From: Microbacterium natoriense
GTDB taxonomy: Bacteria > Actinomycetota > Actinomycetes > Actinomycetales > Microbacteriaceae
Direction: 5' to 3'
NCBI RefSeq assembly: GCF_030816295.1
Contig: NZ_JAUSXV010000001.1
Span: 3,720,001 to 3,784,000, forward strand
Length of the DNA: 64,000 bases
Under the pieces are notes generated by a model. That model ran no database searches. It was not told the DNA's origin and saw only the letters and a program-made list of their open reading frames with translations. Positions within the stretch are counted from its first letter, which is position 1, and each line of letters opens with the position of its first letter. Of the stretch, positions 36,726 to 58,763 are shown in pieces. Position numbers and translations under genes: made by a program.

Positions 36726-37367
36726 ATGAAGACCTCGTTCAAAGCCGTCATCATCACCATCGCCGTCATCGTCCTGCTCGCCCTCGCCGCCATCGTCTAC
36801 GCCATGAACCAGCAAGCCCAGAAGCCCACCGGAGACGGCGAAACCGTCCGTCCCGATTCGCACGTCCTCGACGAGGGAGGAGCGGATGCGGTCACCCTCG
36901 TCGAGTTCCTCGACTTCGAGTGCCCGTCGTGCGGGCAGTTCTTCCCGATCGTGGAGGACCTGCGCGAGAAGCACGACGGCGACATCACGTACGTCGTGCG
37001 CTACTTCCCGCTGCCCGGCCACATCAACTCCACCCAAGCCGCGCTCGCTGCGGAGGCCGCGGCTCAGCAGGATCGCTTCGAGGACATGTACCGCACCCTG
37101 TTCGAGACGCAGCAGCAGTGGAGCGGGCAGCCGACCGAGACACCCGAGGTGTTCCGGACGCTCGCCGAGGACCTCGGTCTCGACATGCCCGCCTACGACG
37201 CGGCGATCGCGGATCCGGCCACGCTCGAGCGCGTCCTCTCCGACAAATCCGACGGAGAGGCCCTCGGCGTGCAGAGCACCCCGTCGTTCTTCATCGACGG
37301 GGAGCTGCTCGAGCTCACCGCGTGGGGCGACCTGGAGACCGCGATCGAGAAGGCGCTCCAGGACTAG
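36726..37367 (+). CDS. Membrane-anchored DsbA-family thioredoxin-like protein
   Basis: A 213-residue protein with an N-terminal membrane anchor (about 6-27) and an extracytoplasmic thioredoxin fold. The active site is CPSC (Cys66-Cys69) in FLDFECPSCGQFF, and the cis-proline loop reads VQSTPSFFIDG. It probably oxidises or isomerises disulfides of secreted proteins. CTGGAG stands 5 bp before the ATG. Its stop overlaps the stop of the convergent monooxygenase gene by 4 bp. Confidence 0.92.
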   Translation: MKTSFKAVIITIAVIVLLALAAIVYAMNQQAQKPTGDGETVRPDSHVLDEGGADAVTLVEFLDFECPSCGQFFPIVEDLREKHDGDITYVVRYFPLPGHINSTQAALAAEAAAQQDRFEDMYRTLFETQQQWSGQPTETPEVFRTLAEDLGLDMPAYDAAIADPATLERVLSDKSDGEALGVQSTPSFFIDGELLELTAWGDLETAIEKALQD

Positions 37368-38710
37368 GCCTCGACGGCGACCGGCTGCCCTGCCACGCCG
37401 AGCGTCTCGCGCAGCGTGGCACCCTCCTCGTACGACGTGCGGTACGTTCCGCGTTCCTGCAGCAGCGGGATGACCCGGTCGGTGAACTCGTCGAGACCGT
37501 GCGGAGTGAGGTGGCCGACGACAGTGAACCCGTCGGTCGCCCGTTCCTGCACATAGCGGTCGATGTCGGCGGCGACCTGGTCAGGCGTGCCGACGAAGGT
37601 GTGGTTCGCGGTGAGCCGGATGATGAGATCGCGGATGCTGAGCTTCTCGGCTTCGGCGACCTCGCGGAGCTTGGCGATCCGGCTGCGCACCGCCGCGTGC
37701 CGGTTCGCGAAGCCCTGCGCCGACTCGGCCCCGGTGTCGGGCTCGACGTCGGGCAACGGTCCGTCGGGATCGTAGCCGCTGAAGTCGCGGTTCCAGACCT
37801 GCTCGAGGTAGGTGATCGCCGTCTCCGGGCGCACCTGGGCGAGAGCGATCTCGCGCGAGCGCTCGCGCGCTTCCTCCAGAGTGTCTCCGAGCACGAACGA
37901 CGCCGCGGGGAGGATCTTGAGGTCGTCCTCCTGACGCCCGACCGCAGCGAGGCGTCCCTTCACATCGCGATAGAACTCCTGCGCATCCTCGAACTCGGTG
38001 TGCAGCGAGAAGATCACGTCGGCGTGCGCGGTGGCGAAGTCGCGGCCGTCGGCCGAGTCGCCGGCCTGCACGATGAGCGGGCGATGCTGCGGCGATCGCG
38101 GCACGTCGAACCGCGCGTCGATGTCGAACAGGTCGCTGCGGTGCGCGACCTGCTCGATCGCGTCCCGGCGCAGGAACTCTCCGGTGTCGGCATCCGCGAG
38201 GATCGCATCGTCACGCCACGACGCCCACAGCCGCTTCGACAGCTCGGCGAACTCGGCGGCCCTGCGGTAGCGGTCGCCGTGGTCGAGGAACCCGCCGCGG
38301 CGGAAGTTCGCCCCGTGGAACGCGTCGGAGCTGGTCACGGCGTTCCACCCGGCACGGCCGTTCGAGAGGTGGTCGAGGGTCGCGAGTTGGCGGGCGAGCT
38401 CATAGGGCTCGTTGAAGGTCGTGCTCAGCGTGCCGACGAGCCCGATGTTCTCTGTGACCGCGGCCAGCGCGGCGAGGATCGCCAGCGTGTTCGGGCGCCC
38501 GAGCACGTCGAGATCGTGGATGCGGCCGCGGTGCTCGCGGAGGCGCAGGCCCTCCGCCAGGAACAGATAGTCGAACAGCCCCCGCTCGGCGTTGCGTGCG
38601 AAGTACTCGAACGACGAGAAGTCGATCTGGCTGCCTGCCGTGGGGTCGGTCCATACGGTGGTGTTGTTCACGCCGGGGAAGTGCGCGGCGAGGTGGATGC
38701 GACGGCTCAT
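37364..38710 (-). CDS. LLM flavin monooxygenase, NtaA/SnaA/DszA type (copy A)
   Basis: A 448-residue two-component flavin monooxygenase that would use FMNH2 from a separate reductase. Family features include AGSQIDFSSFEYFARNAERG, LVGTLSTTFNEPYELARQ, NGRAGWNAVTS, FRRGGFL and VPRSPQHRPLIVQAGDS. This group cleaves C-S or C-N bonds in sulfur compounds and chelators. It is last in the GNAT-LLM-LLM operon read leftward, overlapping the preceding monooxygenase gene by ATGA. A close paralogue lies at 48621-50000. Confidence 0.93.
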   Translation of the reverse strand: MSRRIHLAAHFPGVNNTTVWTDPTAGSQIDFSSFEYFARNAERGLFDYLFLAEGLRLREHRGRIHDLDVLGRPNTLAILAALAAVTENIGLVGTLSTTFNEPYELARQLATLDHLSNGRAGWNAVTSSDAFHGANFRRGGFLDHGDRYRRAAEFAELSKRLWASWRDDAILADADTGEFLRRDAIEQVAHRSDLFDIDARFDVPRSPQHRPLIVQAGDSADGRDFATAHADVIFSLHTEFEDAQEFYRDVKGRLAAVGRQEDDLKILPAASFVLGDTLEEARERSREIALAQVRPETAITYLEQVWNRDFSGYDPDGPLPDVEPDTGAESAQGFANRHAAVRSRIAKLREVAEAEKLSIRDLIIRLTANHTFVGTPDQVAADIDRYVQERATDGFTVVGHLTPHGLDEFTDRVIPLLQERGTYRTSYEEGATLRETLGVAGQPVAVEA

Positions 38711-39912
38711 GCGGAGACCTCCTGTGCGGCGAAGCGACTGGACCGGAGCGGCAGGCCCAGACGCTGCCGCAGAGTGGGCGAGGCATCGTCGTCGTGCAGG
38801 ATGCCGGCGGCGCGCGCCACCGGGATCACCTGCTCGGTGATCGCGGTGAGATCGGCCGGCAGGCGAGCCGGGCGCAGGCGGATGCCGTCGACTCCGGCCG
38901 CGGCGAGGGTGCGGATCTCGTCGATGATCGTGGCCGCCGTGCCGATGGCGATGTGGGCATCGGTGGCGATCGGCGCCCGTTCCTCCAGGCGATCCCAGGC
39001 CTCGACGGCGGCCGCTTCAGTCGCCTCGATCAGCACGAGAAGGTCGGCGAACACGCGCAGCCTCTCTGGTTCGTCACGCACCTCGGCGGCGGCCTGCTCG
39101 ACCTCGGCGACGATCACCGCCGCCTCCTCGGCGCCGCCAGGGGTGATGAACACCACGTCCGCGTGCTCCGCGGCGAACCGGTGCGGGATGCTCTGATGTG
39201 CCAGGGCGGTGATCAGGGGCTGACCCTGCGGCGAGCGCGGCACGATAGAGGCGCCGGTGATCGAGAAGAACTCCCCCTCGAAATCGGCGTTGTGCACCCG
39301 TTCCCGATCGAGGAACCGGCCCGACTCGACGTCGCGGATGATCGCGTCGTCCTCCCAGGAGTCGGCCAGGCGACGGATCGCGTCGACGACCTCTCCAGCC
39401 TCGCGGAACGCCGCCTGCCACGCGGGGTCGTCCTCGACGTGGCCGGAGGCGGGGAACCCGACGGGTCCGTCGCCTCGCCGGCCGAAGTTCGCCCGCTCCT
39501 GCGGAGAGGAACCGGCGACGATGCGGGCACCGGCCCGTCCGAGGCTCGCGTGATCGAGGGTCTGGAGGCCCGTCGCCAGGTGGAACGGCTCGGGATGCGT
39601 CGTGGTCACCGTGGGGATCAGCCCGATCCGACGGGTGAGCGGCGCGAGGAACGACGCGACGAGCAGTGCGTCGAGCCGTCCGCGCACGCGGTCGCGGCGG
39701 ATGCCGGCATCTGCCTCTGCGGTCCGCCCCTCGAGCGTGAGCGCGTCTTCGATCGTCGCGAACACGACCCCGGCGTCGTCGGCCGCGCGCACCAGGTCTC
39801 GCCAGTATCCCGCCGTCGTGAGCTCGGTCGGCCTCGCCGTGGGCTCGCGCCATGCGGCAGGGTGCCAGCCCGCTCCGTCGAGCGCGACGGCGATGTGCAC
39901 CTTCTCAGTCAT
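38707..39912 (-). CDS. LLM flavin monooxygenase, about 400-residue type (copy A)
   Basis: A 401-residue luciferase-like monooxygenase starting MTEKVHIAVALDGAGWHPAA. The stretch IGLIPTVTTTHPEPFHLATG is the substrate/flavin-side beta-alpha unit, followed by GRAGARIVAG and VPRSPQGQPLITALAHQ. Specific substrate unknown; the neighbourhood suggests organosulfur compounds. ATG at 39912 follows AAAGGA. The protein at 47404-48600 is a clear paralogue, sharing ALDGAGWHPAAWREP and IGLIPTVTTTH. Confidence 0.92.
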   Translation of the reverse strand: MTEKVHIAVALDGAGWHPAAWREPTARPTELTTAGYWRDLVRAADDAGVVFATIEDALTLEGRTAEADAGIRRDRVRGRLDALLVASFLAPLTRRIGLIPTVTTTHPEPFHLATGLQTLDHASLGRAGARIVAGSSPQERANFGRRGDGPVGFPASGHVEDDPAWQAAFREAGEVVDAIRRLADSWEDDAIIRDVESGRFLDRERVHNADFEGEFFSITGASIVPRSPQGQPLITALAHQSIPHRFAAEHADVVFITPGGAEEAAVIVAEVEQAAAEVRDEPERLRVFADLLVLIEATEAAAVEAWDRLEERAPIATDAHIAIGTAATIIDEIRTLAAAGVDGIRLRPARLPADLTAITEQVIPVARAAGILHDDDASPTLRQRLGLPLRSSRFAAQEVSA

Positions 39913-39959
39913 CTGTGGTTCCTTTCGATCACGAGGACGCATGTCCCGCGAGGGTCTTG

Positions 39960-40679
39960 TCAGCCCGCGAGCACGCGGTCGTCGACGGGCGTGCGCACCG
40001 CGAGGAAGGTGGTGTGCCGACGGAGGGTGAAACCGAGACGCTCGTACACGCGGATCGCACCGATGTTCGCCGCCGCCGCGTGCAGCAGGGCGCGGTCGCC
40101 GCGCTGCTGGATGTGGAAGGCCACGTCGAGCACGAGCCTCGAAGCGATGCCCTGCCCGCGGTGCTCGGCATCCGTGGCGACCGCGCTGATCTCGGTCCAT
40201 CCCTCCGGATGCAGCCGCTCCCCCGCCATCGCGATCAGTCGCCCCTCGCGGCGGATGCCGACGTAGCGACCGAGCTCGTGCGTACGAGGGCGGAACGGCC
40301 CCGGCTGGTTGCGCTCCACCAGCGCGAGCATCTCGGGCACGTCATCGGCGCCCAGCAGCACCGCCTCCTCGTCGGGCCGAGGGCGCAGAGCATCCGTCTG
40401 CACGAGCTGCACGCCCGCACCACGACCGAGCTCCTGCCACCCCTCGGGAAGATCCGGGTCCGCACCTGATATCCCGATCTCCTCACCCGGACCGACGAGT
40501 TCGGTGAGCGCCTGCCACACCCTCGGGTGCTCCCAGGTGCGGACCGCGACGAACGGCGCGACCTCCGAGGGGTAGCGCCGAACGAGGTCGTCGCCGATCG
40601 CGAAAGACGAGTGCGGCCCCGTGAGCGCATGCCACGCGGGGTTGTCGAGGACGTCGTCTCCTGGTGCCGTGTGCGACAT
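39960..40679 (-). CDS. GNAT-family N-acetyltransferase at the head of the LLM operon
   Basis: A 239-residue acetyltransferase; the acetyl-CoA-binding motif reads TDAEHRGQGIASRLVLDVA, followed by ALLHAAAANIGAIRVYERLGF, both in the C-terminal half. The N-terminal half may be a second, degenerate GNAT fold. In the proposed pathway it would N-acetylate an S-modified cysteine before oxygenation. Start at 40679 (MSHTAPGDD) was chosen for spacing to an AACGGAACG sequence; an ATG six codons upstream is possible. It is first of the leftward GNAT-LLM-LLM operon. Confidence 0.82.
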   Translation of the reverse strand: MSHTAPGDDVLDNPAWHALTGPHSSFAIGDDLVRRYPSEVAPFVAVRTWEHPRVWQALTELVGPGEEIGISGADPDLPEGWQELGRGAGVQLVQTDALRPRPDEEAVLLGADDVPEMLALVERNQPGPFRPRTHELGRYVGIRREGRLIAMAGERLHPEGWTEISAVATDAEHRGQGIASRLVLDVAFHIQQRGDRALLHAAAANIGAIRVYERLGFTLRRHTTFLAVRTPVDDRVLAG

Positions 40680-40930
40680 GGGATCGTTCCGTTTCATCGA
40701 GTGTCGAGATGGGTGTCCCCACGTTAGGAGCACACCGTCGGGTCAGGGGCCGCCAACAGCCGACTGTGTCGCCTCATGACCGAACACGTCGGCGCGTAAC
40801 GATCGGCGTCGGTCTTTGACCACGCGCGTCAGCGCATGACCACCGGCGCCCGCGGCACCTCGGGGCGGTGAGAACATCGCCCATCGGCATTCCGCCGCCC
40901 CCTCGCTGCAACCACGGAAGGAGCCCTGTC
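40680..40930. promoter_or_regulatory. Divergent control region between the leftward and rightward monooxygenase operons
   Basis: This 251-bp region separates the GNAT-LLM-LLM operon from the ABC-LLM operon. Three TGACC direct repeats (40777-40781, 40817-40821, 40837-40841) sit on the same face of the helix, 40 and 20 bp apart; two are within catgacc. A CGTAAC motif is at 40795-40800, also seen at 56023 and 56043. A strong AAGGAG precedes the permease ATG. A shared activator or repressor site is likely; its identity is unknown. Confidence 0.5.
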
Positions 40931-42001
40931 ATGCCCGCCACGCCCACATCACGCTCGACGATCGTCCGCTACATCGCGTCGAGGCTCGGCCAGTCGCTGA
41001 TCGTGCTCTGGGCGGCGTACACGGTGTCGTTCATCGTGCTGTATGCGCTGCCGAGCGACCCGGTGGCCCTGCTCGCCGGCGGCGACGCGAGCGATGTGAC
41101 GCCGGAGCAGCTCGCCGAGCTGACCGCGCAGTACGGCCTCGACAAGCCGCTCGTCGTGCAGTACCTCCTCCGCCTCGGCGGAGTGCTCCGGGGTGACTTC
41201 GGCACCTCGATCGCGACCGGACGCCCCGTGTCCGAGGTCATCGGCGAAGCCGTCTCCCCCACTCTGCAGCTCGTCGGGCTCGCCTTCCTGATCGCCGTGC
41301 TCGCGGGCGCCGGTCTCGCGGTGCTCGCCACCTATGTGCGAGGGCGCGCACTCTCGACCTTCCTGCTGGGCCTGCCGCCTCTCGGCGTCGCGATCCCCTC
41401 GTTCTGGTTCGGGCTGATGCTCATCCAGTGGTTCTCGTTCCAGCTGCCACTGTTCCCGGCGATGGGCGACAAGAGCGCCGTCTCGCTCGTCCTGCCGTCG
41501 ATCGCCCTCGCGCTGCCGACCGGCGCCATGATCGCGCAGCTGCTCTCGAAGAGCCTGGCCACAGCCCTCGGCGAGGCCTACATCGACACCGCGCGGGCGA
41601 AGGGCGCCGACCGTCGTCGAGTGCACCTGCGACATGCGCTGCGCAACGCGGCCCTCCCCGCCATCACGATGACCGGCCTGATCGTCGGTCAGCTGCTCAG
41701 CGGCACGGTCGTCACCGAGACCGTCTTCTCACGCCCCGGCGTCGGCCGGGTCACGGCATCCGCGGTGCAGCAGCAGGACATCCCCGTCGTGCAGGGCATC
41801 GTGCTGTTCGCGGCCGCCGCCTTCGTTCTCGCCAACCTCGCGGTCGATCTCGTCTACCCGCTGCTCGATCCGCGCATCCAGCTGACGGCGGCACCGCGCC
41901 GCCGCCGTCAGACCCCCGTCCCCACGCACGCTGAGGCCCCCGTGGCCGCGGAGGCCGCCACCGACTTCGACACCGACGCCGTACTGGAGGCAGCACGATG
42001 A
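40931..42001 (+). CDS. Peptide/nickel-type ABC transporter permease (DppB-like)
   Basis: A 356-residue permease with six spans, starting near IVRYIASRLGQSLIVLWAAY. The EAA-type loop reads EAYIDTARAKGADRRRVHLR and NAALPAITMTGLIVG follows, typical of DppB/OppB. With its partner permease, fused ATPases and binding lipoprotein it forms a complete importer for peptide-like solutes. ATG at 40931 follows GGAAGGAG. A Pro/Ala-rich tail of about 40 residues is unusual. Confidence 0.93.
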   Translation: MPATPTSRSTIVRYIASRLGQSLIVLWAAYTVSFIVLYALPSDPVALLAGGDASDVTPEQLAELTAQYGLDKPLVVQYLLRLGGVLRGDFGTSIATGRPVSEVIGEAVSPTLQLVGLAFLIAVLAGAGLAVLATYVRGRALSTFLLGLPPLGVAIPSFWFGLMLIQWFSFQLPLFPAMGDKSAVSLVLPSIALALPTGAMIAQLLSKSLATALGEAYIDTARAKGADRRRVHLRHALRNAALPAITMTGLIVGQLLSGTVVTETVFSRPGVGRVTASAVQQQDIPVVQGIVLFAAAAFVLANLAVDLVYPLLDPRIQLTAAPRRRRQTPVPTHAEAPVAAEAATDFDTDAVLEAAR

Positions 42002-42947
42002 GCGAGACCACCGCCCTGCTGCCCCACACCGCACAGCATCCGGTCGACGGATTCGGTGCGACGGCGGGCGACCGCTTCCAGGACGCGGTCGCCGACCGCG
42101 CATCCCGCGCCGCCGCTCGACCGACGTGGACGAGCAGGTTCGGCTGGTTCGCCCGGCGGCCGGCAGCAGCGCTCTCCCTGCTCTGGCTGCTCGTCGTGAT
42201 CGTCGCCGCGCTCTGGCCGAGCGTCATCGCGCCGGGCGATCCGCTCGTGGGCGTGCCCGCGGAGAACCTGCAGGGGCCGTCGGCGGCGCACTGGTTCGGC
42301 ACCGACCAGATCGGCCGCGACCTGTTCACGCGCGTCGTGCACGGCACCTCGCTCACCATCAGCGCGGCGTCGATCGCCGTGGCCGTCGGCCTCGTCGTCG
42401 GCTCGGTGCTGGGCCTCGTCAGCGGTTTCGCCGGCGGCAGGACGGATGCCGTCATCATGCGCGCCGCCGACGTGCTGCTCGCGATTCCCGGGCTGCTGCT
42501 GTCGCTCGCGATCATCACGGCTCTGGGCTTCGGCACCGTCAACGTGGCGATCGCGGTCGGCATCGCCAGTGTGGCGTCGGTGTCGCGCATCATGCGCTCC
42601 GAAGTCATAAAGGTGCGCAGTTCCGCGTACATCGAGGCCGCACGCGCCTCGGGCAACGGGTGGCTGCGCGTGCTCCTGCGGCACGTGCTGCCGAACTCCA
42701 CGGGGCCGGTGATCGTGCTCGGAGTGCTCGAGTTCGGCGGCGCGATCCTCGCGGTGTCGGCGCTGAGCTTCCTCGGCTACGGCGCCCCTGCTCCCGCGCC
42801 CGAATGGGGAGCGCTCGTCTCCGGCGGCCGCGACTTCCTGCGAGGCGCCTGGTGGCTCACGACGCTCCCCGGCCTCACCATCGCCCTCACCGTGCTCGCC
42901 GCCAACCGGCTGGCGCGAGGGCTCGACGACGAAGGGACGGGCAGACG

Positions 42948-42951
<4 letters not shown>
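41998..42951 (+). CDS. Peptide/nickel-type ABC transporter permease (DppC-like)
   Basis: A 317-residue permease. A cytoplasmic N-terminal extension precedes the first span at about residue 60; GTDQIGRDLFTRVVHGTSLT is the conserved DppC periplasmic motif, and the EAA loop reads YIEAARASGNGWLRVLLRHV with LPNSTGPVI after it. It overlaps the DppB-like stop by ATGA and the ATPase start by ATGA, so the three are translationally coupled. Confidence 0.94.
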
Positions 42952-44669
<1,718 letters not shown>

Positions 44670-44672
44670 CCC

Positions 44673-50000: not shown

Positions 50001-50866
50001 CCCTGCAGGCCGAGGTCGACACGCACGACGACTTCGCTCAGGAGTGGGAGGCCTGGCATCAGACGCACGAGAAGAAGCGCGCGGACCCGCACGGCTTCCT
50101 CGCCGTCACGGGCCTGTTCTGGCTGACCGACGAGCCGACCAGGGTGCCGGGGCTGCCCGGCCTGTGGAGCACCGGGGTGGACGGGCCTGTGGTCGAGCTC
50201 GGGCCCGGCGAGGCGCTGCGGTTCGGCGAGACGCCGATCAGCGGAAGGCACGGATTCGGGCCGATCGCGGAGCGCGACGGCATAACGGTCGCGTTCGACG
50301 GAGGCGTGGTCGAGATCGCCAAGCGCGGCGGTCTCGACATCCTGCGTCCGCGTCGCGCCGACTTCCCGTTCCTGCGCTCCTACGACGGGACCAGCGTCTT
50401 CACGGCCGACCCGAAGTGGCGGATACCGGCGAGGTTCGTGCGGTTCATCGCGCCGCGGGCGATCGAGGTGGGAGCGGCGGTCGACTCGCTGGCGCACGTG
50501 TACGACTCGCCAGGCTACGTCGAGTTCGAGGTCGACGGCGAGACGTTCCGGCTGCTCGCCTTCCCCGGGTACGCCGCGGGCTCGCTGTTCGTGCTGTTCA
50601 CCGACGCGACGAGCGGCGTCACGACCTACAAGGCGAACCGCACCGTGACGATCGAGGTGTCCGACGAGAGCGACGAGACCGTGATCGACTTCAACCGGGC
50701 GGTGAACCTGCCGTGCGCGTACACGGACTTCGCGACCTGCCCGCTGCCGCCGGCCGAGAACCACCTGCGCATCGAGGTCGTCGCCGGCGAGAAGACCCCG
50801 ACGGCGAGGGTCGAGGGCGTCGTCTCCGACGCGGGGATCGTGCCTGCGGCATCCCCCACCATCTGA
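49997..50866 (+). CDS. DUF1684 domain protein at the end of the monooxygenase operon
   Basis: A 289-residue soluble protein. The N-terminus EWEAWHQTHEKKRADPHGFL followed by AVTGLFWL, and the later segments GYVEFEVDGETFRLLAF, DATSGVTTYKANR and FNRAVNLPCAYTDFATCPLP, match DUF1684. The biochemical role is unknown to me; its place suggests a part in handling the oxygenation product. It is the last gene before the convergent repeat region. Confidence 0.9.
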   Translation: MTLQAEVDTHDDFAQEWEAWHQTHEKKRADPHGFLAVTGLFWLTDEPTRVPGLPGLWSTGVDGPVVELGPGEALRFGETPISGRHGFGPIAERDGITVAFDGGVVEIAKRGGLDILRPRRADFPFLRSYDGTSVFTADPKWRIPARFVRFIAPRAIEVGAAVDSLAHVYDSPGYVEFEVDGETFRLLAFPGYAAGSLFVLFTDATSGVTTYKANRTVTIEVSDESDETVIDFNRAVNLPCAYTDFATCPLPPAENHLRIEVVAGEKTPTARVEGVVSDAGIVPAASPTI

Positions 50867-50924
50867 GCTCTCGCTTCAGCTGTCGTCCCGAGTGCGCGTT
50901 TGTCGTCGCGTTTCGGCCCACGCC

Positions 50925-51207
50925 CCGAGGTGCGTGTCCTGGTCGCCTGCCACCTGAAAGGCGGCATCAACACGCACCTCGGCGCCGTGGCAGAGGCGCC
51001 CGCGAAGCTGCACCACATCCTCACCTCCCACCACGCCCCGAGGTGCGCGTCATCGTCGCCTCCCACCGGAAAGGCGGCACCAACACGCACCTCGGCGGGC
51101 GAAGGACGGGCGCTCAACGGACGTCAAAGTCCCCCCTCTGCGCCCACGCCCGAGGTGCGCGTCATCGTCGCCTCCCACCGGAAAGGCGGCATCAACACGC
51201 ACCTCGG
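50925..51207. repeat. Three 58-bp palindromic repeats at 113- and 112-bp spacing
   Basis: Copies at 50925-50982, 51038-51095 and 51150-51207 are each exactly 58 bp and nearly identical. Each begins ccgaggtgcg and ends cgcacctcgg, giving a terminal stem of up to 13 bp (perfect in copy 1), with a second possible internal pairing cgcc/ggcg. The spacers of 55 and 54 bp are unrelated except that each copy is preceded by ccacgc. The array fills the 384-bp gap between two convergent genes; no gene is seen in it. Confidence 0.92.
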
Positions 51208-51250
51208 GCGCCATGCCGGCGCGAGCATGCTCGTGCGAGGGAGGGTCGAC

Positions 51251-51772
51251 TCAGAGATCCAGCCCGAAGGCCAGCAGGTCGAGGAACCGGCCCGGCTCGA
51301 CCTCGATGCGGTGTTCGCGCTCGTGCAGTCGGCGGAATCCGAGCTTGGCGTACAGCGCGTGGGCGCCGAGCATCTCCGGGCCGCTGTTCATCACGACCCG
51401 CTCGACGCCGCGCTCCTCCGCGAGCGCGATGACGTGCCGGGTGAGAGCTTCTCCGATGCCTCGGCCGCGCGCCGACGGCGCCACCGCGAGCTGCCGGAAG
51501 TCGAGTTCGCCCTCTCGCGCGAGTTCCGACAGGCGTTCGCCCGGACGCGGGACCCACACCGTGCCTATGATCGCGCCGGCGGCGTCTTCTGCGACCCAGA
51601 CATCTCCAGACTCGACCCGCGCGGCGACGTCTCGCAGTGAGTGCAGGTACGCCGGCGACAGCTCGGAGTAACTCGAGCTGTACGCCTCTTCGGTGACCTG
51701 TCCGGCGACGTCGTAGTCGTCGGCCGTCGCGATCCTGATGACGAGGGTCTGCGGTGCAGCGGATGCCGTCAT
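51251..51772 (-). CDS. GNAT-family N-acetyltransferase at the end of the amino-acid ABC operon
   Basis: A 173-residue single-domain acetyltransferase. The acetyl-CoA pyrophosphate loop is VAPSARGRGIGEALTRHVIA, followed by VVMNSGPEMLGAHALYAKLG, the usual motif B. By position with the M20 gene, the LLM gene and the polar amino-acid importer it is the best candidate for N-acetylating the imported amino acid, as SnaA/SnaB do in Bacillus (established for B. subtilis, inferred here). Its ATG overlaps the monooxygenase stop by ATGA. Confidence 0.9.
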   Translation of the reverse strand: MTASAAPQTLVIRIATADDYDVAGQVTEEAYSSSYSELSPAYLHSLRDVAARVESGDVWVAEDAAGAIIGTVWVPRPGERLSELAREGELDFRQLAVAPSARGRGIGEALTRHVIALAEERGVERVVMNSGPEMLGAHALYAKLGFRRLHEREHRIEVEPGRFLDLLAFGLDL

Positions 51773-52911
51773 GAACGGGCCGCCTCGAGCGGCCGTTCGG
51801 CTGCGGCGTCGAGCCCCCACACCTCGGCGAGCAGCTCGAAGGAGCGCACACGGTCGCGGGGATCGTGCGTGATCGTGGTGACCAGCAGCTCGTCGGCCGC
51901 AGTCACGCGCTGCAGCGTCGCAAGCCGTTCTGCGACAGCATCCGGATCCCCGACGAAACGGGTATCGAGGCGATCGGCGACGACGTCGAGCAGGTCGGGC
52001 TCGAACGGTTCGACGAGCGCATCTTCGGGGCGGGGATAGGCGATGGCGCCCTGGCCGGCGCGGATGCTGTGCACCCATTCAGCGTAACCGCGCCCGATGC
52101 GTTCGGCGTCGGACGCGGTGTCGGCGACCAGCACATCAGCCGAGACGATCACGCGCGGCTCTGCGAGCGCACCGGGACGGAACGCACGACGGTACGCGTC
52201 GACGGCGTCGAGCACGAAGCTGCCCGCGACATGGTAATTGGCGCCGAAGGGCAGCCCGAGGCGTCCGGCGAGCTCAGCGCTGATGCCGGCGGTGCTGCCG
52301 TGCAGCCACACCTGGATGTCCTGTCCCTCGGCCGGGGTCGCGTGAATCGGAACACCCTCGGGTGCGGCATAGTTGCCGTCGATCAGGGCGAGGATGTCGA
52401 GGACGTCCTGCTCGAAGCGGTCGGCGTCGCCCGCCGTGCGGCGCAGCAGACGCGCCTGAGCGGTGAAGCGTGCGGCGTCGAACGCGAAGGGCTTCGCCGC
52501 AGGCAGCAGCAGCCCGTCGACCACGCGAGCTGCGCCCGCGGCGGGAGGTGGCGTCGCGGCGGCACCGCTGGAACCGGAGCGTCCGATGCCGAGATCGAAG
52601 CGCCCCGGATGAAGAGCGGCGACGACTCCCGCAGCCTCGACGACCTGGAGGGCCGCGTAGTTGCCGATGATCGTCGCTGCGGTCCCGATGCGGATGCGCT
52701 CGGTGGCCGCGGCGATCGCGGCGAGCAGCACATGCGGAGCCGACCCCGCCACGCCGGGGTTCAGGTGATGCTCCGCGAGCCAGAACCGGTGATATCCGAG
52801 ATGCTCGGCGGCACGCGCGAGTTCGATCGTGTCCCGCAGCCCCTGCCCCGGGGTCGACCCTTCGCCGAACGGGGAGAGATCGAGGATGCTGAGTGGCGTG
52901 CGGTCGGTCAT
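51769..52911 (-). CDS. LLM oxidoreductase (MsnO8-like)
   Basis: A 380-residue luciferase-like monooxygenase. It starts TPLSILDLSPFGEGSTPGQG and has YHRFWLAEHHLNPGVAGSAP and IRIGTAATIIGNYAALQVVE, close to the short LLM group often annotated MsnO8. It lacks the longer insertions of the DszA type. It lies in the operon of a polar amino-acid ABC importer and a GNAT, and is separated from the binding-protein gene by 95 bp with a hairpin. Confidence 0.92.
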   Translation of the reverse strand: MTDRTPLSILDLSPFGEGSTPGQGLRDTIELARAAEHLGYHRFWLAEHHLNPGVAGSAPHVLLAAIAAATERIRIGTAATIIGNYAALQVVEAAGVVAALHPGRFDLGIGRSGSSGAAATPPPAAGAARVVDGLLLPAAKPFAFDAARFTAQARLLRRTAGDADRFEQDVLDILALIDGNYAAPEGVPIHATPAEGQDIQVWLHGSTAGISAELAGRLGLPFGANYHVAGSFVLDAVDAYRRAFRPGALAEPRVIVSADVLVADTASDAERIGRGYAEWVHSIRAGQGAIAYPRPEDALVEPFEPDLLDVVADRLDTRFVGDPDAVAERLATLQRVTAADELLVTTITHDPRDRVRSFELLAEVWGLDAAAERPLEAARS

Positions 52912-53006: not shown

Positions 53007-54005
53007 TCAGGACTTGGGCAGCCCCTGCGGGTTGACCTCGGACTTCTCGATCCCCTCGGAGTCGAGGCCCCAGGCATCGAGGAGCTCGGAGTACGTGCCG
53101 TCGGCGATGAGCTGGTTGAGGACGATGCTGACCGGCTCGATCAGCCCGTTGCCCTTCGCCGTGCCTGCGGCGATGCTGGCCGCGAGCGGCCAGCCACCGG
53201 GGACGATGCCGACGAGTTTGGTGTCACCGGTCTCGCGCGCCGCCCACGCGGAGGTGGCGTTCGGGCCGAAGGTGACGTCGACGCGACCTGACTGCAGGGC
53301 GAGGACCGATGCCGCGTAGTCGTCGTAGTACTGCAGCTCGGCGGGCGCCTTGCCATCGGCCTCGAGCTCTTCGTTCCACTTCAGCAGCACCTGCTCCTGG
53401 TTGGTGCCGGAGCCCACGACGATCTTGAGGCCCGAGATGTCGGCGGCCCCCTCGATCTTCTCGATGTCGCTGTCGGCCTTCACGTAGAAGCCGAGCAGGT
53501 CCTGCCGATAGCTCGCGAAGTCGAAGAGCTCCTTGCGCTCCTCGGTGACCGTCACATTCGAGGTGATCAGGTCGTACTTGCCGGATTGGATGCCGAGGGG
53601 CCAGTCGGCCCAGGCCACGACGACCGGGTTGTACTCCAGGCCGAGTCCTTCTGCGATCAGGCTGCCGATGTTCGGCTCGGTGCCGGCGGGCAGCGTCTCG
53701 CCTTCCGGCACGTACGCGAGCGGCGGCACGTAGGCGGCGACCGCCACGGTGAGCTTGCCCGGCTCGATCGGCTCGAAGCCGCTCTTCTTGAGCGCCTCGA
53801 CGGCTTCCGGGACGACGTCTCCCTCGATCCATTCGATGTCGTCCGCCGAGACGTTGGCCGATGTCGCCGCAGGTGTCGGCGTCGCGTTGTCGGCGACCGC
53901 CTCGGCCGGACGGTTGAGGGTGACGGCGGCCACGACGCCGACGATCGCGATGACCGCTGCCGCGGCCACTCCGATCGCGACGCCCTGCTTCTTGCTGAGT
54001 GCCAT
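53007..54005 (-). CDS. Polar amino-acid-type (family 3) substrate-binding protein, membrane-anchored
   Basis: A 332-residue protein. An N-terminal span (about 8-29) without a lipobox anchors it; a Thr/Ala/Pro linker follows. The family 3 fold is seen in KLTVAVAAYVPPLAYVPEGE, IQSGKYDLITSNVTVTEERK and ISGLKIVVGSGTNQEQVL. It would bind an amino acid or derivative and pass it to the permease upstream. In context, a cysteine derivative is the most attractive ligand; this is inference. Confidence 0.92.
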   Translation of the reverse strand: MALSKKQGVAIGVAAAAVIAIVGVVAAVTLNRPAEAVADNATPTPAATSANVSADDIEWIEGDVVPEAVEALKKSGFEPIEPGKLTVAVAAYVPPLAYVPEGETLPAGTEPNIGSLIAEGLGLEYNPVVVAWADWPLGIQSGKYDLITSNVTVTEERKELFDFASYRQDLLGFYVKADSDIEKIEGAADISGLKIVVGSGTNQEQVLLKWNEELEADGKAPAELQYYDDYAASVLALQSGRVDVTFGPNATSAWAARETGDTKLVGIVPGGWPLAASIAAGTAKGNGLIEPVSIVLNQLIADGTYSELLDAWGLDSEGIEKSEVNPQGLPKS

Positions 54006-54069: not shown

Positions 54070-54861
54070 TCAGCCCAGAACCTTGGCCAGGAACTCCTGG
54101 GTACGCGGATGCTGGGGAGCGGTGAGGACCTCGGCGGGCGGGCCCTGTTCGACGATCACGCCGCCGTCGAGGAACACCACGCGATCGGCCACCTCACGGG
54201 CGAAGCCGATCTCGTGGGTGACGATGATGAGCGTCGTGCCCAGCTGGGCGAGATCGCGGATGACGTCGAGCACCTCTCCGACGAGCTCGGGGTCGAGTGC
54301 GCTCGTCGGCTCGTCGAACAGCAGCACCTTCGGCTTGAGCGCGAGGGCCCTGGCGATCGCGACGCGCTGCTGCTGGCCGCCGGAGAGCTGACGCGGATAG
54401 GCGTCCGCCTTGTCGGCGAGTCCGACCCGGTCGAGCAGGCCGAGAGCCAGCTCACGGGCGTCGTCCTTTGTCAGCCGCTTGAGGGCGATCGGCGCCTCGG
54501 TGACGTTCTCGAGCGCCGTGAGGTGCGGGAACAGGTTGAAGTTCTGGAACACGATGCCGACCTGCGTGCGCCGCCGGAGGATCTCGCGCTCGTGCAGTTC
54601 GTGCAGCTTCTCGCCGCGGAGCTCGTAGCCGATCAGCTCGCCGTCGACCGTGACCGATCCCCGGTCGACGCTCTCCAGGTGGTTGATGGTGCGCAGCAGC
54701 GTCGACTTGCCGGAGCCGCTCGGTCCGAGCAGGGCGATCACCTCGCCGGGCCTCACGGTGAGATCGATGCCGGACAGCACCTCGACCCCGCCGTAGCTCT
54801 TGTGGACGTTGTGGATCTCGACGAGTCCGCGGGTGGCGGTCTCTGCGACGACGGTGGTCAT
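54070..54861 (-). CDS. Polar amino-acid ABC transporter ATPase (GlnQ/TcyC-like)
   Basis: A 263-residue ATPase with Walker A LLGPSGSGKST (near 43), Q-loop QNFNLFPHLTALENV, signature LSGGQQQRVAIARAL and Walker B VLLFDEPTSALD. These are the near-invariant motifs of glutamine/cystine-type importers. Its ATG overlaps the permease stop by ATGA, and the binding-protein gene follows after 64 bp. Confidence 0.95.
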   Translation of the reverse strand: MTTVVAETATRGLVEIHNVHKSYGGVEVLSGIDLTVRPGEVIALLGPSGSGKSTLLRTINHLESVDRGSVTVDGELIGYELRGEKLHELHEREILRRRTQVGIVFQNFNLFPHLTALENVTEAPIALKRLTKDDARELALGLLDRVGLADKADAYPRQLSGGQQQRVAIARALALKPKVLLFDEPTSALDPELVGEVLDVIRDLAQLGTTLIIVTHEIGFAREVADRVVFLDGGVIVEQGPPAEVLTAPQHPRTQEFLAKVLG

Positions 54862-55910
54862 CGGACTTCCTTTCCTGCAGAGGCGACGACGGGCGCGGCA
54901 TCCGCTCCCCCTGCTGACGGCGGGGCGTCTCCCAGCCGCGCCCACTGCACACGGATCCAGTGCCGAGCCTGCTGGAGCGGGGTCGGCGGCAGTGCACGCA
55001 CGGAGCCGCGGGCGAAGTGCCGCTCGATGTAGAACTGCGCGACGCTGAGGATGGTCGTGATGATCGTGTACCAGACCACCGCGACGAGCAGCAGCGGGAT
55101 GACCCGGCTGTTGCGGTTGTAGATGACCTGCACGGCGTAGAACAGCTCGGGGATCGCGATCACGAACACGACCGATGCCCCCTTGACCAGGCCGATCACC
55201 TCGTTGGTCGCGTTCGGGATGATCGAGCGCATCGCCTGCGGGAGGATGATGCGGAACAGCCGCCGGGCCGCCGGGATGCCGAGGGCCGCCGCGGCCTCCT
55301 GCTGGCCGTGGTCCACCGAGATCAGCCCTCCGCGGATGATCTCGGCCGAGTACGCGGCCTGATGCAGGCCGAGCCCGAGGATCGCCGCCGCGAAGGCGCT
55401 GATGAGCTGCACAGTCGGGAACTCGACGATCCAGAAGTCGGTCGTGAAGGGCGTGCCGAGTCCGAGCGTCGGGTACAGGTAGCCGAGGTTGTACCAGACG
55501 ATGATCTGCACGACCAGCGGCACCGAGCGGAAGAACCAGATGTATCCCCACGCGGCCGAGCTCAGCAGGGCCGACTTCGACAGCCGCCCGAGCGCGATGA
55601 TCGTGCCGAGCACGAAGCCGACCACCGCCGAGACCGCCGTGATCGACAGCGTGTAGCCGATGCCGATCAGCACAGGGCCGGAGAAGAAGTACTCGGCGAA
55701 CGTGCCCCACATGTAACGGTCGTTCGTGACGAGGCTCCAGGCGAACTGGGCGACGGCGAAGACGATCACCGCGGCGATCGTCCACCGCCACCAGTGGCGG
55801 GTGTGCACCACGGTCACGGCGCCGAGATCGACCTTCGTGCGGTTCTCGACGGGACGGTCGATCTCGGGATCGACCGGGGCGCCGACGGGCGGAGCGGCGG
55901 TGTCAGTCAT
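54858..55910 (-). CDS. Polar amino-acid ABC transporter permease
   Basis: A 350-residue permease. An 80-residue N-terminal extension with one extra span precedes the HisM-type core (GIGYTLSITAVSAVVGFVLG), and the EAA loop reads HGQQEAAAALGIPAARRLFR followed by IILPQAMRSIIPN. One permease gene implies a homodimer. It shares ATGA overlap with the ATPase gene. The 154-bp gap before it contains CGTAAC motifs (56023, 56043) and may hold a promoter. Confidence 0.93.
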   Translation of the reverse strand: MTDTAAPPVGAPVDPEIDRPVENRTKVDLGAVTVVHTRHWWRWTIAAVIVFAVAQFAWSLVTNDRYMWGTFAEYFFSGPVLIGIGYTLSITAVSAVVGFVLGTIIALGRLSKSALLSSAAWGYIWFFRSVPLVVQIIVWYNLGYLYPTLGLGTPFTTDFWIVEFPTVQLISAFAAAILGLGLHQAAYSAEIIRGGLISVDHGQQEAAAALGIPAARRLFRIILPQAMRSIIPNATNEVIGLVKGASVVFVIAIPELFYAVQVIYNRNSRVIPLLLVAVVWYTIITTILSVAQFYIERHFARGSVRALPPTPLQQARHWIRVQWARLGDAPPSAGGADAAPVVASAGKEVR

Positions 55911-56064
55911 GATGATCCTCGTGTTCCCCGCAGCGCCCGGTGCGCCGCGTGAAGCCAAGCTAGGGTCATCCGCGCCGCCCGTCCCAGCCGCGATTCACAC
56001 GTCGCAACCGGCCGACGCACGCCGTAACCGAGAGGCTCGCCCCGTAACACGACGAGGCGAGCGG

Positions 56065-57375
56065 TCAGGCGTTCCGGAGGATCTGGTCGGTCACCCTGAC
56101 CGAGAAGTACAGGGCGTCGACGGGGATGCGCTCGTCGGCGGCGTGGAACTCGCCGAACACGTCGAAGTCATCGGGCACGCGCAGGGGCACGAACCCGTAG
56201 CCGCGGATGCCGAGCTGAGCGAGGTGCTTGTTGTCGGTGCTCGCGGGCAGCAGATACGGAACGACGAGACCGCCGGGATCCTCCGCCGTGATCGCGTCCT
56301 GGAGGACATCGAGCAACGGTGCGTCCAGGGGCGATTCGATCGCGGGAACCGGACGCCCCCAGGCGATCTCGACGTCGTCGCCGACGATCCCCGCCAGCTC
56401 CTCGTGGAGCGCGGCATCGGCCCCCGGGAGCACCCGGATATCGAGGCGCGCGATCGCCTCGGCGGGGATCACGTTGGTCTTGCCGCCCGCGGCGAGCACG
56501 GTGGGTGAGACCGTGTTGCGCGCCGAGGCGCCGACCAGAGACGCGACGAAACCGAGGGTCTCGAGCTCGGCGTCGAGGTCGGCTGCGGAGAAGCGGATGC
56601 CGCGGTGTCGCCCGAACACGTCGAGGAAGCGGTTCAGGGCGGGAGTGCGCACGACGGGGAACTCGTGCTCCCCCACCGCCGTCACCGCACGAGCGAGGCG
56701 CACGACGGCGTTGTCGGGGGTCGGCCGCGAGCCGTGCGCGGCATGACCCCGAGCCGTGATCGTGGCCCAGGTCACGCCCTTCTCCGCCGTCGCGACGAGG
56801 TAGGCACGGCGGTCGTCGGCGAGCGGAACCGAGAAGCCGCCGACCTCGCTGATGGCCTCGGTCGCACCGGCGAACAGCTCGGGACGGTTGCGGACGATCC
56901 AGCGCGCGCCCCACACTCCCCCGGCTTCCTCGTCGGCGAAGAACGCGAAGATGAGGTCCCGTCGGGGCACGATGCCCTGTCTCCGGTACTCGCGGGCGAT
57001 CGCGAGGATCGTGCCCGCATAGTTCTTCATGTCGACCGCGCCCCGCCCGTACAGGACGCCGTCGTGGATCTCGGCGCCGAACGGCGGGTGGGTCCAGTCG
57101 GCCTCCGCCACAGGCACGACATCGAGATGCGCGTGCACGACCAGGGCACCGGCATCCGGATCCGACCCTGCCAGCCGTGCGACCACGCTCGCCCGGCCTG
57201 CCTGCGGCTCGACGAGTTCGACGCGGTAGCCGACCTCCTCCAGCATCTCCTTCACGAACAGCGCAGCGCGGGTCTCGCCGTCGCCGATCGTGGCGGCCTC
57301 GCCCGTGTTCACACTGTCGATGCGGATGAGCGCTCGGATGAAGTCGAGGGCCTCGTCTTCGAGAGGAGTGGTCAT
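56065..57375 (-). CDS. M20-family metallopeptidase/deacylase
   Basis: A 436-residue zinc hydrolase of the ArgE/DapE/CPG2 group. The metal-site motifs are VVHAHLDVVPV (His83, Asp85), GRGAVDMKN (Asp115), and FFADEEAGG (Glu149 catalytic, Glu150 ligand), with FHAADERI at the C-terminal end. Members remove N-acyl groups from amino acids or cleave dipeptides. In the proposed pathway it would free cysteine from N-acetylcysteine, as the B. subtilis M20 deacetylases do (inference). Nine bp separate it from the CMD gene. Confidence 0.92.
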   Translation of the reverse strand: MTTPLEDEALDFIRALIRIDSVNTGEAATIGDGETRAALFVKEMLEEVGYRVELVEPQAGRASVVARLAGSDPDAGALVVHAHLDVVPVAEADWTHPPFGAEIHDGVLYGRGAVDMKNYAGTILAIAREYRRQGIVPRRDLIFAFFADEEAGGVWGARWIVRNRPELFAGATEAISEVGGFSVPLADDRRAYLVATAEKGVTWATITARGHAAHGSRPTPDNAVVRLARAVTAVGEHEFPVVRTPALNRFLDVFGRHRGIRFSAADLDAELETLGFVASLVGASARNTVSPTVLAAGGKTNVIPAEAIARLDIRVLPGADAALHEELAGIVGDDVEIAWGRPVPAIESPLDAPLLDVLQDAITAEDPGGLVVPYLLPASTDNKHLAQLGIRGYGFVPLRVPDDFDVFGEFHAADERIPVDALYFSVRVTDQILRNA

Positions 57376-57383
57376 CTCGGGAC

Positions 57384-57737
57384 TCAGTGCTGGTGCTCTG
57401 CGCGCGCGTCGCCCGCGAGCTTGAAGGCGAGCCGGCCGTGCGCGTAGCCGCCTCCCGCTCGGATCGCCGTGGCCACCCAGGCCGCCTCGGCGAGCTCGGC
57501 TTCCGTGGCTCCTGCTCGCACGGCGTTCTGAGAGTGACCGTCGATGCAGTACACGCACTGGGTCGTGATCCCGACGGCCAGCGCGATCAGCTCACGGTAC
57601 TTCAGCGGGATCTCCCGGCCCTCCGTGGCGAACACGGCCTGATCGAAGGCGGCGAACGCGGCGAGGATGTCGGGCGTCTCGTTCTTGTAGACGCGGGTGA
57701 AGGTCTTGTCTGCGGCGCGATCGAAGTAGTCGGACAC
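57384..57737 (-). CDS. Carboxymuconolactone decarboxylase/AhpD-like protein
   Basis: A 117-residue all-helical protein with the redox-active CMD motif CVYCIDGH (Cys61, Cys64, His68), as in AhpD-type peroxidase partners. It may handle peroxide or sulfenic by-products of the flavin oxygenases; that role is inferred. GAGGAG precedes the ATG. It is first in the leftward operon CMD-M20-permease-ATPase-binding protein-LLM-GNAT. Confidence 0.9.
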   Translation of the reverse strand: MSDYFDRAADKTFTRVYKNETPDILAAFAAFDQAVFATEGREIPLKYRELIALAVGITTQCVYCIDGHSQNAVRAGATEAELAEAAWVATAIRAGGGYAHGRLAFKLAGDARAEHQH

Positions 57738-57818
57738 GTGCTCTCCTCAGGATTTCTGGCCGCGCGGGCGCCCGGCGCTCCCTCACGGTAACCGCGGCGA
57801 GGAGAGCGGATGACACGC

Positions 57819-57837
57819 GATGACGCGGATCGTCATC
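57819..57837. promoter_or_regulatory. Inverted repeat in the divergent CMD/nitroreductase region
   Basis: A perfect 7-bp inverted repeat gatgacg (57819-57825) and cgtcatc (57831-57837) with a 5-nt spacer lies in the 198-bp gap between divergent genes, 82 bp from the CMD start and 99 bp from the nitroreductase start. It could be a shared operator. A ggtaaccg motif at 57787 resembles the CGTAAC motifs noted upstream of the two importers. Confidence 0.5.
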
Positions 57838-57935
57838 CCGCGTCTCGGAGCGTCTTCGACGATCGTTCATTGCGTCGCATGTCGCCAGGTTGCACGACGG
57901 CCCACCGTGCCACCCCCAGGGGCGAGACTCGTCGC

Positions 57936-58763
57936 ATGGCAGATGTGATCGGCACGGGGACCCTGCTGCGCGACCGCTACGGCGTCGACGCGGATGACGA
58001 AGCGCTGCACCTCGACGACTCCGGCACGATCCGGGGTCTACTGGCCCACCATTCGGTGCGCGCGTTCGAGCGGCGTCTCGTGTCACCGGCGATCGTCGAC
58101 ACTCTGATCGCGGCGTCGCAGTCGGCGTCGACCTCGTCGAACCTGCAGTCGTGGAGCGTGGTGGTCGTCCGCGACGAGGCCCAAAAGAGCGCGGTGGCCG
58201 CGCTGGCCGGCGATCAGCAGTTCATCCGTGAGGCGCCGCTCTTCCTCGTGTTCGTCGCCGACTGGGCCCGGGGAGCGGCGATCTCGCGCAGCCGCGGCGA
58301 GGCGTCCGAGGGCATCGACTACTTCGACAGCACACTCGTCGCGACCATCGACGCCGCGATCGCGGCGCAGAACGCGGTCGTGGCCGCCGAGTCGCTCGGT
58401 CTCGGCGCCGTCTTCGTCGGCGCGGTGCGCAACCGCCCCGACGAGCTCTCCGCGCTGCTGGAGCTGCCGGACGCGTCCTACCCGGTCGTCGGCGTCGCGG
58501 TCGGCTGGCCTGATCCTGCGAACCCGGCGCGGGTCAAGCCCCGCCTCCCGCAGTCGGTGGTCCGCCACGACGAGCGGTACTCCCCGGCATCCGTCGACGA
58601 CCTCGCCGACTACGACGACGCCCTTCGGGTCTTCAACGAGTCGCAGGGGCGGACAGGGAGCTGGCTCGATGCGGTGGTCGCCCGCGTGCGCAGTCGATCA
58701 GCGCTGCACGGGCGTGAACGGCTGCGCAGCATCCTGTCTTCCCGCGGACTGCCCTCGGCATGA
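57936..58763 (+). CDS. Nitroreductase-family FMN oxidoreductase (NfsA/Frp-like)
   Basis: A 275-residue flavoenzyme; LLAHHSVRAFERRLVSPAIV is the family N-terminal signature, SASTSSNLQSWSVVVV the FMN phosphate/isoalloxazine site, and SLGLGAVFVGAVRN the C-terminal FMN motif. Frp-type members produce free FMNH2, which the LLM monooxygenases need; no other flavin reductase is in the island, so this is the best in-cis candidate (inference). ATG at 57936 was chosen for the GAGACT hexamer six bases upstream. It overlaps the selO start by ATGA. Confidence 0.9.
   Translation: MADVIGTGTLLRDRYGVDADDEALHLDDSGTIRGLLAHHSVRAFERRLVSPAIVDTLIAASQSASTSSNLQSWSVVVVRDEAQKSAVAALAGDQQFIREAPLFLVFVADWARGAAISRSRGEASEGIDYFDSTLVATIDAAIAAQNAVVAAESLGLGAVFVGAVRNRPDELSALLELPDASYPVVGVAVGWPDPANPARVKPRLPQSVVRHDERYSPASVDDLADYDDALRVFNESQGRTGSWLDAVVARVRSRSALHGRERLRSILSSRGLPSA

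Follow-up and report, generated by a model that had tools for sequence, protein, structure and literature searches.

A gene island in Microbacterium natoriense probably recovers sulfur from organic compounds. The island (positions 37364-58763) lies in a 64,000-nt window, by which we mean the whole stretch of DNA analysed (contig NZ_JAUSXV010000001.1, 3,720,001 to 3,784,000), of a 4.19-Mb genome that consists of a single contig. It encodes two ATP-binding cassette (ABC) importers, luciferase-like flavin monooxygenases (LLMs), GNAT acetyltransferases and an M20 metallohydrolase, and we give a probability of about 0.75 to the reading that it serves organosulfur scavenging and is expressed together with sulfate assimilation. 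An organosulfur function had been proposed in an earlier note on this DNA and is supported here by a sequence element common to the island and sulfate assimilation, by the solved relatives nearest to LLM1 and LLM5, which are the Bacillus subtilis proteins YtnJ and MoxC, and by the sulfur genes found close to related kits in other organisms.

Gene order was checked gene by gene (Table 1). A leftward block, GNAT1-LLM2-LLM1, is followed by a rightward block, DppB-DppC-DppDF-SBP5-LLM3-LLM4-LLM5-DUF1684, and a second leftward block, CMD-M20-permease-ATPase-SBP3-LLM6-GNAT2 (SBP, solute-binding protein), with a nitroreductase gene divergent from CMD. Every gene named in the earlier note's three-operon layout was confirmed by open frames, start context and domain scans, as was the fused DppDF, a chain of 573 aa that carries both ABC domains.

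A predicted control element common to the island and sulfate assimilation

The upstream regions of operons encoding SBP3 are alike by eye and contain a 36-bp element with a 10-bp period of TKACG-like units. A matrix, seeded with the window sequence, was derived from 68 non-redundant upstream regions of 95, with 44 sites retained and 24 regions dropped; as it was trained on permease promoters it is circular there (67/69 score at least 12). Sulfite-reductase promoters from 42 Microbacterium genomes, M. natoriense included, which are those given loci among 59 genomes with the gene, reached a score of at least 12 in 29/42 cases and at least 15 in 24/42, compared with 2/153 and 0/153, respectively, of control lead promoters from seven Microbacterium genomes. 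Across 798600 control positions, one scored at least 15 and none 17.5. In the 20-kb sulfate-assimilation region of M. natoriense itself, the best site (score 23.1) lies 66 bp before the sulfite reductase gene; judged by eye, this region encodes a ferrochelatase-like protein, sulfite reductase, CysH, CysD, CysN and an SsuABC-like importer, and the sulfite-reductase and NMT1 domains were confirmed by scan.

Unique sites scoring at least 12 were also found before Dpp-importer (8/12), rhodanese (10/14), LLM2-led (5/9) and SelO (2/3) operons, and at lower frequency before LLM4-led (8/27), LLM3-led (4/16) and DUF1684-led (4/19) operons; 17 of the remaining leads in the retrieved stretches (n=536, rhodaneses included) reached 15. 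The matrix scan covered 1.38 of the 4.19 Mb of the M. natoriense genome, window included, and sites scoring at least 17 precede the permease (a training member), sulfite reductase, DppB and a menC-like gene.

Searching the whole genome with a three-unit pattern, with up to three mismatches allowed, gave six sites, and the reversed pattern gave one. Two overlapping sites precede sulfite reductase, where the only site without mismatches is found, and a third (57823-57855, 3 mismatches) lies in the CMD promoter of the island, overlapping the weak matrix element there. Two more, each with 3 mismatches, lie some 45 bp upstream of genes for an NADPH-FMN reductase (PF03358, L249:887-1456) and an OsmC-like protein (L248:1578-2129), and the sixth does not precede any nearby gene on its strand. 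We infer that the element is a functional operator, marking a predicted sulfur regulon common to parts of the island and to sulfate assimilation.

The monooxygenases

The six flavin monooxygenases counted in the earlier note are six of the 12 Bac_luciferase matches in the genome. LLM1 and LLM5, which are 56% identical to each other, belong to the NtaA/DmoA family (TIGR03860, 423.5 and 415.2 bits, cut-off 279.7), while LLM2 and LLM4 remain under this cut-off (234.4 and 254.0 bits) and match mostly the first ~290 positions of the model. LLM6 is a member of the MsnO8 family (TIGR03558, 285.3 bits, cut-off 166.95), and LLM3 has TIGR04027 as its best NCBIfam model, at 78.8 bits under a cut-off of 412.9. 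The nearest solved structures of LLM1 and LLM5 are those of YtnJ and MoxC (290/304 bits for LLM1/LLM5), closely followed by a nitrilotriacetate (NTA) monooxygenase entry (278/271) and then by entries for DszA (244/255), DmoA (207/182) and ethylenediaminetetraacetate (EDTA) monooxygenase (167/164). YxeK, which we take to be MoxC, and YtnJ/CmoJ cleave C-S bonds of N-acetylated S-substituted cysteines. The NTA and EDTA enzymes of the same family cleave C-N bonds, so that family membership alone cannot decide the chemistry of LLM1 and LLM5.

The island encodes none of the usual families of flavin reductase, and FMNH2 would therefore come from elsewhere; the FMN reductase preceded by a weak copy of the element could feed the island monooxygenases. 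Another NtaA-type LLM of this genome (L102:7898-10506, ~2489898-2492506) scores 270.7 bits, just under the family cut-off. Its gene overlaps one of O-acetylhomoserine sulfhydrylase type, which we count in favour of a sulfur-related role; the control element is absent before this metY-LLM operon (best matrix score 0.7).

Importers, hydrolase and accessory proteins

The best NCBIfam models for the amino-acid-type importer are those of cystine transporters, both matched under their cut-offs (ATP3 with the TcyN ATPase, 327.6 bits against 406; PERM3 with the cystine permease, 130.5 against 300). In SBP3, Arg157 and Pro248 are invariant in 116/116 aligned copies. Alignment with AncQR matched the Arg and placed an Asp at the position of Pro248; presumably the Arg binds the ligand carboxylate and the Asp the alpha-amine. 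Judged from this alignment, the exchange of Asp for Pro would fit a ligand with a blocked amine, though other residues could replace the Asp. The best NCBIfam model for SBP5 is TIGR04028 (362.2 bits, cut-off 468.5).

The M20 protein is of the PRK07906 type (NF005913, 560.7 bits, cut-off 382) and has no meaningful BLAST similarity (E 0.054) to the M20 aminoacylase of a related kit in Agrobacterium vitis; going by sequence, the same role may be filled by different branches of the superfamily. A fold search with a model of the DUF1684 protein (mean pLDDT 75.5) returned only six chains at E <= 0.001, all uncharacterised haloarchaeal proteins, the same ones that were found by sequence search for the DUF1684 family. 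One gene cluster was at first taken as MmgE/PrpD, which presumably would have corresponded to yxeQ; this reading was dropped, as the scanned member matched no Pfam model at 1e-5 and by eye resembles an HNH/13E12-type protein.

Conservation within Microbacterium

The survey of the genus comprised 149 Microbacterium genomes, from which 33 stretches around SBP3 or LLM3 matches were retrieved; counts are from best-hit rows, and several stretches stop at a contig edge. SBP3 was found in 25/149 genomes (in one at only 38% identity) and LLM3, at 61% identity or more, in 10/149. Nine of the ten genomes with LLM3 also have SBP3 (Fisher 2e-7), and in 8/9 of these the two genes are at most 15 kb apart on one contig, the ninth (G143) having them on two contigs. 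This co-occurrence across the genus argues that the island is not a chance grouping. Among 24 stretches with SBP3, GNAT2 was present in 20, an M20 of the window type (at least 59% identity) in 15, GNAT1 in 13, and CMD and LLM6 in 9 each. LLM2 and LLM1 are adjacent in 8 stretches and LLM4 and LLM5 in 5.

Behind the genes of close Dpp-importer relatives come either LLM4-LLM5 (L061, L062, L070, L076) or a second M20 with 34-37% identity to that of the window (L063-L066, L071, L086, L087), accompanied by LLM3, DUF1684 or both. Neither LLM3 nor DUF1684 was seen at three other relatives (L083, L084, L085), and more distant ones (L073, L074, L077, L081, L090) adjoin an aminotransferase instead. In the close relative G143 (SBP3 88% identical; L068, L069), GNAT1 is directly followed by LLM3-LLM4-LLM5. 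A locus lacking SBP3 (L092) has a GNAT1 relative of 74% identity and, at most 7 kb from it, genes for two rhodaneses, a flavin reductase and enzymes of O-acetylhomoserine/O-acetylserine sulfhydrylase, CBS/cysteine-synthase and cystathionine gamma-synthase type. A PF13454 FAD-NAD(P)-binding protein of ~650 aa (L065:2490-4433 and relatives), not encoded in the island of the window, follows LLM2-LLM1 in 7/8 stretches, the eighth ending at that point.

A sulfite reductase of the type found in M. natoriense (E <= 1e-40) was detected in 59/149 genomes, in one of them as a fragment, and in 57/135 genomes of good quality, which suggests that sulfate assimilation has widely been lost or is lacking across the genus, as far as this type, to which the search was limited, is concerned. 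The idea that the island stands in for a missing sulfite reductase was rejected, the two showing no association (sulfite reductase in 10/25 genomes with the island and 49/124 without it; Fisher 1.0).

Related kits in other genera and on plasmids

A neighbourhood search in other actinobacteria, as advised in the earlier note, turned up related kits in other Microbacterium, Leucobacter and Streptomyces. An alignment-based scan of named genomes for SBP3 gave 418 loci, the best 80 of which were mostly from Microbacterium, followed by Agromyces, Leifsonia, Cryobacterium, Pseudoclavibacter, Leucobacter, others and one Rhizobium. The nearest named relatives, at 98% identity, are in M. hydrocarbonoxydans SA35 and the metagenome-assembled genome SH_68_12. 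Neighbourhoods of these 80 loci were compared with 20 arbitrarily placed 20-kb stretches from seven Microbacterium genomes; since the SBP3 loci are related to each other, the resulting p-values are generous. Over-represented were the PF13454 protein (30/80 against 0/20), DUF1684 (35 against 0), DAO oxidases (20 against 0), flavin reductases (19 against 0) and rhodaneses (13 against 0, p 0.04). SsuE-like FMN reductases (10/80 against 0/20) and SsuD-like LLMs (5/80 against 0/20) were not significant, and relatives of SBP5 were not enriched (14/80 against 2/20). An SBP3 80% identical to the window copy is encoded on a 4.5-kb contig deposited under Stenotrophomonas maltophilia P13 (L145), which is likely to represent contamination or recent transfer.

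Plasmid relatives of SBP3 numbered 238 records at E <= 1e-40, of which six were opened. GNAT, LLM and amino-acid importer genes were present in all six neighbourhoods and an M20-type hydrolase or amidohydrolase in four; on the A. vitis (L327) and Haematobacter (L328) plasmids a peptide-type importer is encoded in the same stretch. Related kits are found in Leucobacter, Streptomyces, Rhizobium, Agrobacterium and Pantoea, some of them near cysteine synthase, ssuE/msuE or sulfatase genes. The Haematobacter plasmid kit is accompanied by a cysteine synthase gene, that of R. leguminosarum has msuE nearby, and the kit of Streptomyces NBC_01001 is flanked by genes for an SsuA-type importer, an aryl-sulfate sulfotransferase and a sulfatase. 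In Streptomyces, a single run of genes contains relatives of LLM4, LLM5, SBP3 and GNAT1. Three more regions came from a search with LLM5: in S. clavuligerus the GNAT and LLM genes are accompanied by ssuE and by a gene resembling glutathione S-transferases, and in Rhizobium and Agrobacterium an MsnO8 LLM is joined by a peptide-type importer.

Comparison with known systems

In B. subtilis, the yxe and ytm operons encode the monooxygenases YxeK/MoxC and YtnJ/CmoJ together with GNAT and M20 proteins and a polar-amino-acid importer. The island likewise joins an amino-acid-type ABC importer, GNAT, M20 and NtaA-family LLMs in one locus, with YtnJ and MoxC as the nearest solved relatives of LLM1 and LLM5, and is a variant of this type of organosulfur kit, extended by another importer and by a predicted sulfur regulon. 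It differs in that this second importer is of the peptide/metallophore type, in having six LLMs, among them two long/short pairs and one of MsnO8 type, in the presence of DUF1684 and CMD, and in the PRK07906 type of its M20. Proteobacterial plasmid kits (A. vitis L327, Haematobacter L328, Pantoea L329) also comprise an MsnO8-LLM, a further LLM, an M20 protein or amidohydrolase, GNAT, an amino-acid ABC transporter and an SBP, with best identities to the island of 51-53% for SBP3, 65-69% for the ATPase and 50-53% for the permease; however, their NtaA-type LLM is only 34-39% identical to those of the island, and the stretches opened contain no match to DUF1684 or CMD. As to the suggestion in the earlier note that the combination may be undescribed, both importer types are already found together on the annotated A. 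vitis and Haematobacter plasmids, in stretches without DUF1684 and CMD. The TIGR04027 and TIGR04028 families (KPN_01858-type LLM and KPN_01854-type binding protein) provide the best models of LLM3 and SBP5, both below cut-off. EDTA and NTA systems share the LLM family with the island, whose enzymes score higher with YtnJ and MoxC and whose element is common with sulfite reductase. The distinct features of the island are its two-importer layout, paired LLMs, DUF1684 and CMD companions and predicted common control with sulfate assimilation.

Gene organisation

Genes were called from open frames, with starts picked by overlap and ribosome-binding context and domains assigned by Pfam and NCBIfam scans. 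A codon-usage gene caller matched the chosen starts in the island except those of GNAT1 and the nitroreductase; if 57810 is the real start of the latter, the element facing it falls within its frame. The M20-permease gap of 154 bp contains a promoter-like element of its own, and CMD-M20 and permease-to-GNAT2 may therefore be separate transcription units. The gap between the convergent DUF1684 and GNAT2 genes is filled by three similar tandem hairpins of ~65-70 nt (50921-50990, 51036-51100 and 51145-51212; minimum free energy -38 to -44 kcal/mol, z -5 to -7), and no further copy turned up when the genome was searched with one unit; the array is possibly a two-way terminator. A scan for Rfam riboswitches that covered the window and four related loci, 140000 bases in total, had no match reaching the gathering score.

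Table 1. Genes and predicted control elements of the M. natoriense island (window coordinates)
Feature	Position	Strand	Assignment
LLM1, NtaA/DmoA-family FMN monooxygenase	37364..38710	-	PF00296 and TIGR03860 above cut-off
LLM2, short divergent NtaA-type paralogue	38707..39912	-	PF00296; TIGR03860 below cut-off; 4-bp overlap with LLM1
GNAT1 acetyltransferase	39960..40679	-	FR47 and Acetyltransf_1 above cut-off
Predicted sulfur-control element facing DppB	40766..40801	+	Matrix score 17.7; 130 bp upstream
DppB-type permease	40931..42001	+	PF00528, PF19300
DppC-type permease	41998..42951	+	PF00528
DppDF, two ABC ATPase domains in a single 573-aa chain	42948..44669	+	PF00005 (two), oligo_HPY
SBP5, family-5 solute-binding protein	44714..46336	+	PF00496
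LLM3, divergent LLM nearest TIGR04027	46336..47373	+	PF00296
LLM4, short LLM2-like paralogue	47404..48600	+	PF00296; TIGR03860 below cut-off
LLM5, LLM1 paralogue	48621..50000	+	TIGR03860 above cut-off
DUF1684 protein	49997..50866	+	PF07920, 149.6 bits
GNAT2 acetyltransferase	51251..51772	-	PF00583
LLM6, MsnO8-family LLM	51769..52911	-	TIGR03558
SBP3, polar-amino-acid-type binding protein	53007..54005	-	PF00497
ATP3, amino-acid ABC ATPase	54070..54861	-	Best NCBIfam model TcyN cystine ATPase
PERM3, amino-acid ABC permease	54858..55910	-	PF00528; best NCBIfam model cystine permease
Predicted sulfur-control element, permease operon	55993..56028	-	Matrix score 37.4; 83 bp upstream; seed and training member
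M20 metallohydrolase, PRK07906 type	56065..57375	-	PF01546; NF005913
CMD / AhpD-core protein	57384..57737	-	PF02627; TIGR00778 above cut-off
Weak predicted element facing CMD	57811..57846	-	Matrix score 13.2; 74 bp upstream
Weak predicted element facing nitroreductase	57869..57904	+	Matrix score 15.0; 32 bp before ATG at 57936
Nitroreductase-family protein	57810..58763 (start 57810 or 57936)	+	PF00881; NF008033 186 bits, cut-off 223

Proposed function and alternatives

From these parts, with which a route of N-acetylation, oxygenation and deacylation is compatible, we infer the substrates and enzymatic steps as follows. The importer of polar-amino-acid type and that of peptide/metallophore type would take up organic molecules that contain sulfur, probably cysteine derivatives substituted at the sulfur as well as larger conjugates. 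Once the GNATs had N-acetylated the amino acid, FMNH2-dependent LLM1 and LLM5, perhaps with LLM2 and LLM4, would oxidise the carbon adjoining the sulfur and so cleave the C-S bond. The M20 hydrolase would then strip the acyl group to yield cysteine. More tentatively, all of these features may be joined in a dual-importer actinobacterial organosulfur regulon under an unrecognised regulator that reads the TKACG-like direct repeats with their 10-bp period. LLM1 with LLM2 and LLM5 with LLM4 would then be two-subunit C-S monooxygenases, SBP3 would directly import sulfur amino acids with a blocked amine, such as N-acetylated, mercapturate-like ones, and the Dpp-type importer would take peptide-sized conjugates; we consider this full combination rather doubtful.

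Several observations weigh against organosulfur scavenging under common control with sulfate assimilation. C-N bonds are the target of the NTA and EDTA enzymes related to LLM1 and LLM5, and the nearest solved relatives of SBP5 are NikA-type (nickel) binding proteins. Cys/Met pyridoxal phosphate enzymes (4/80 against 2/20) and cysteine synthases (3/80 against 1/20) were not enriched at SBP3 loci, the presence of the island is independent of that of sulfite reductase, and the G143 locus has no Dpp importer, SBP5, LLM1 or LLM2. The element at a score of at least 12 is mostly missing from promoters of GNAT1 (2/23), M20 (2/12), CMD (3/20) and flavin reductase (1/17), and from all called leads of SBP3 (0/42), LLM6 (0/9), ATP3 (0/7), GNAT2 (0/4) and LLM1 (0/3), many of which sit inside operons. 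A site scoring 19.0 (L288:912-947) also lies 7 bp upstream of the menC-like gene (o-succinylbenzoate synthase, by eye), and the p-values overstate independence because the genomes are related and the controls come from seven genomes.

Sulfite release from sulfonated compounds is known from SsuD and from Seu of C. glutamicum. An analogous desulfonation of sulfonates or sulfonate esters by the island monooxygenases, completed by sulfite reductase, would explain why the element is common to the island and the sulfite reductase gene, and the SsuA-type importer, aryl-sulfate sulfotransferase and sulfatase genes beside the Streptomyces NBC_01001 kit point the same way, as do, at a frequency that is not significant, the SsuD-like LLMs at 5/80 SBP3 loci. 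We nevertheless regard this as unlikely. LLM1 and LLM5 score only 50.9 and 44.3 bits with the SsuD model TIGR03565, far under its cut-off of 518.2, the GNAT, M20 and amino-acid importer would have no obvious role, and a sulfite reductase of this type (E <= 1e-40) is missing from 15/25 genomes with the island.

Cleavage of C-N bonds in sulfur-free compounds such as aminopolycarboxylates, opines or metallophores, imported through the NikA-like system, is still less probable. EDTA and NTA monooxygenase systems do work with a peptide-type importer, and the NTA and EDTA monooxygenases among the relatives of LLM1 and LLM5, the similarity of SBP5 to NikA-type binders and the DAO-type oxidases at 20/80 SBP3 loci are in line with such a function. 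Yet the element is common with sulfite reductase and rhodanese genes, and the EDTA and NTA entries score under YtnJ and MoxC (167 and 278 against 290 bits for LLM1; 164 and 271 against 304 for LLM5). It is similarly improbable that the island comprises two separate systems, with only the amino-acid-importer operon serving sulfur and the Dpp-LLM3-LLM5-DUF1684 operon a neighbour by chance or transfer, for although SBP3 occurs without LLM3 (at least 61% identity) in 16/25 genomes and LLM3 without SBP3 in G121, the Dpp importer is missing at the G143 locus (L068) and SBP5 relatives are not enriched near SBP3, Dpp promoters bear the element (8/12 unique), that of the window included, both importer types occur together on the A. 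vitis and Haematobacter plasmids, and LLM4/LLM5 and SBP3/GNAT1 relatives share one run in Streptomyces.

Significance

The importer-monooxygenase kit is widespread and, to our knowledge, uncharacterised. The element common with sulfate assimilation provides a testable reason to place it in sulfur nutrition. It also offers a way to approach a sulfur regulator in Microbacteriaceae, as well as what DUF1684, CMD and the short LLM partners do. Unless another type of sulfite reductase replaces the one searched for, organic sulfur would be essential for many Microbacterium.

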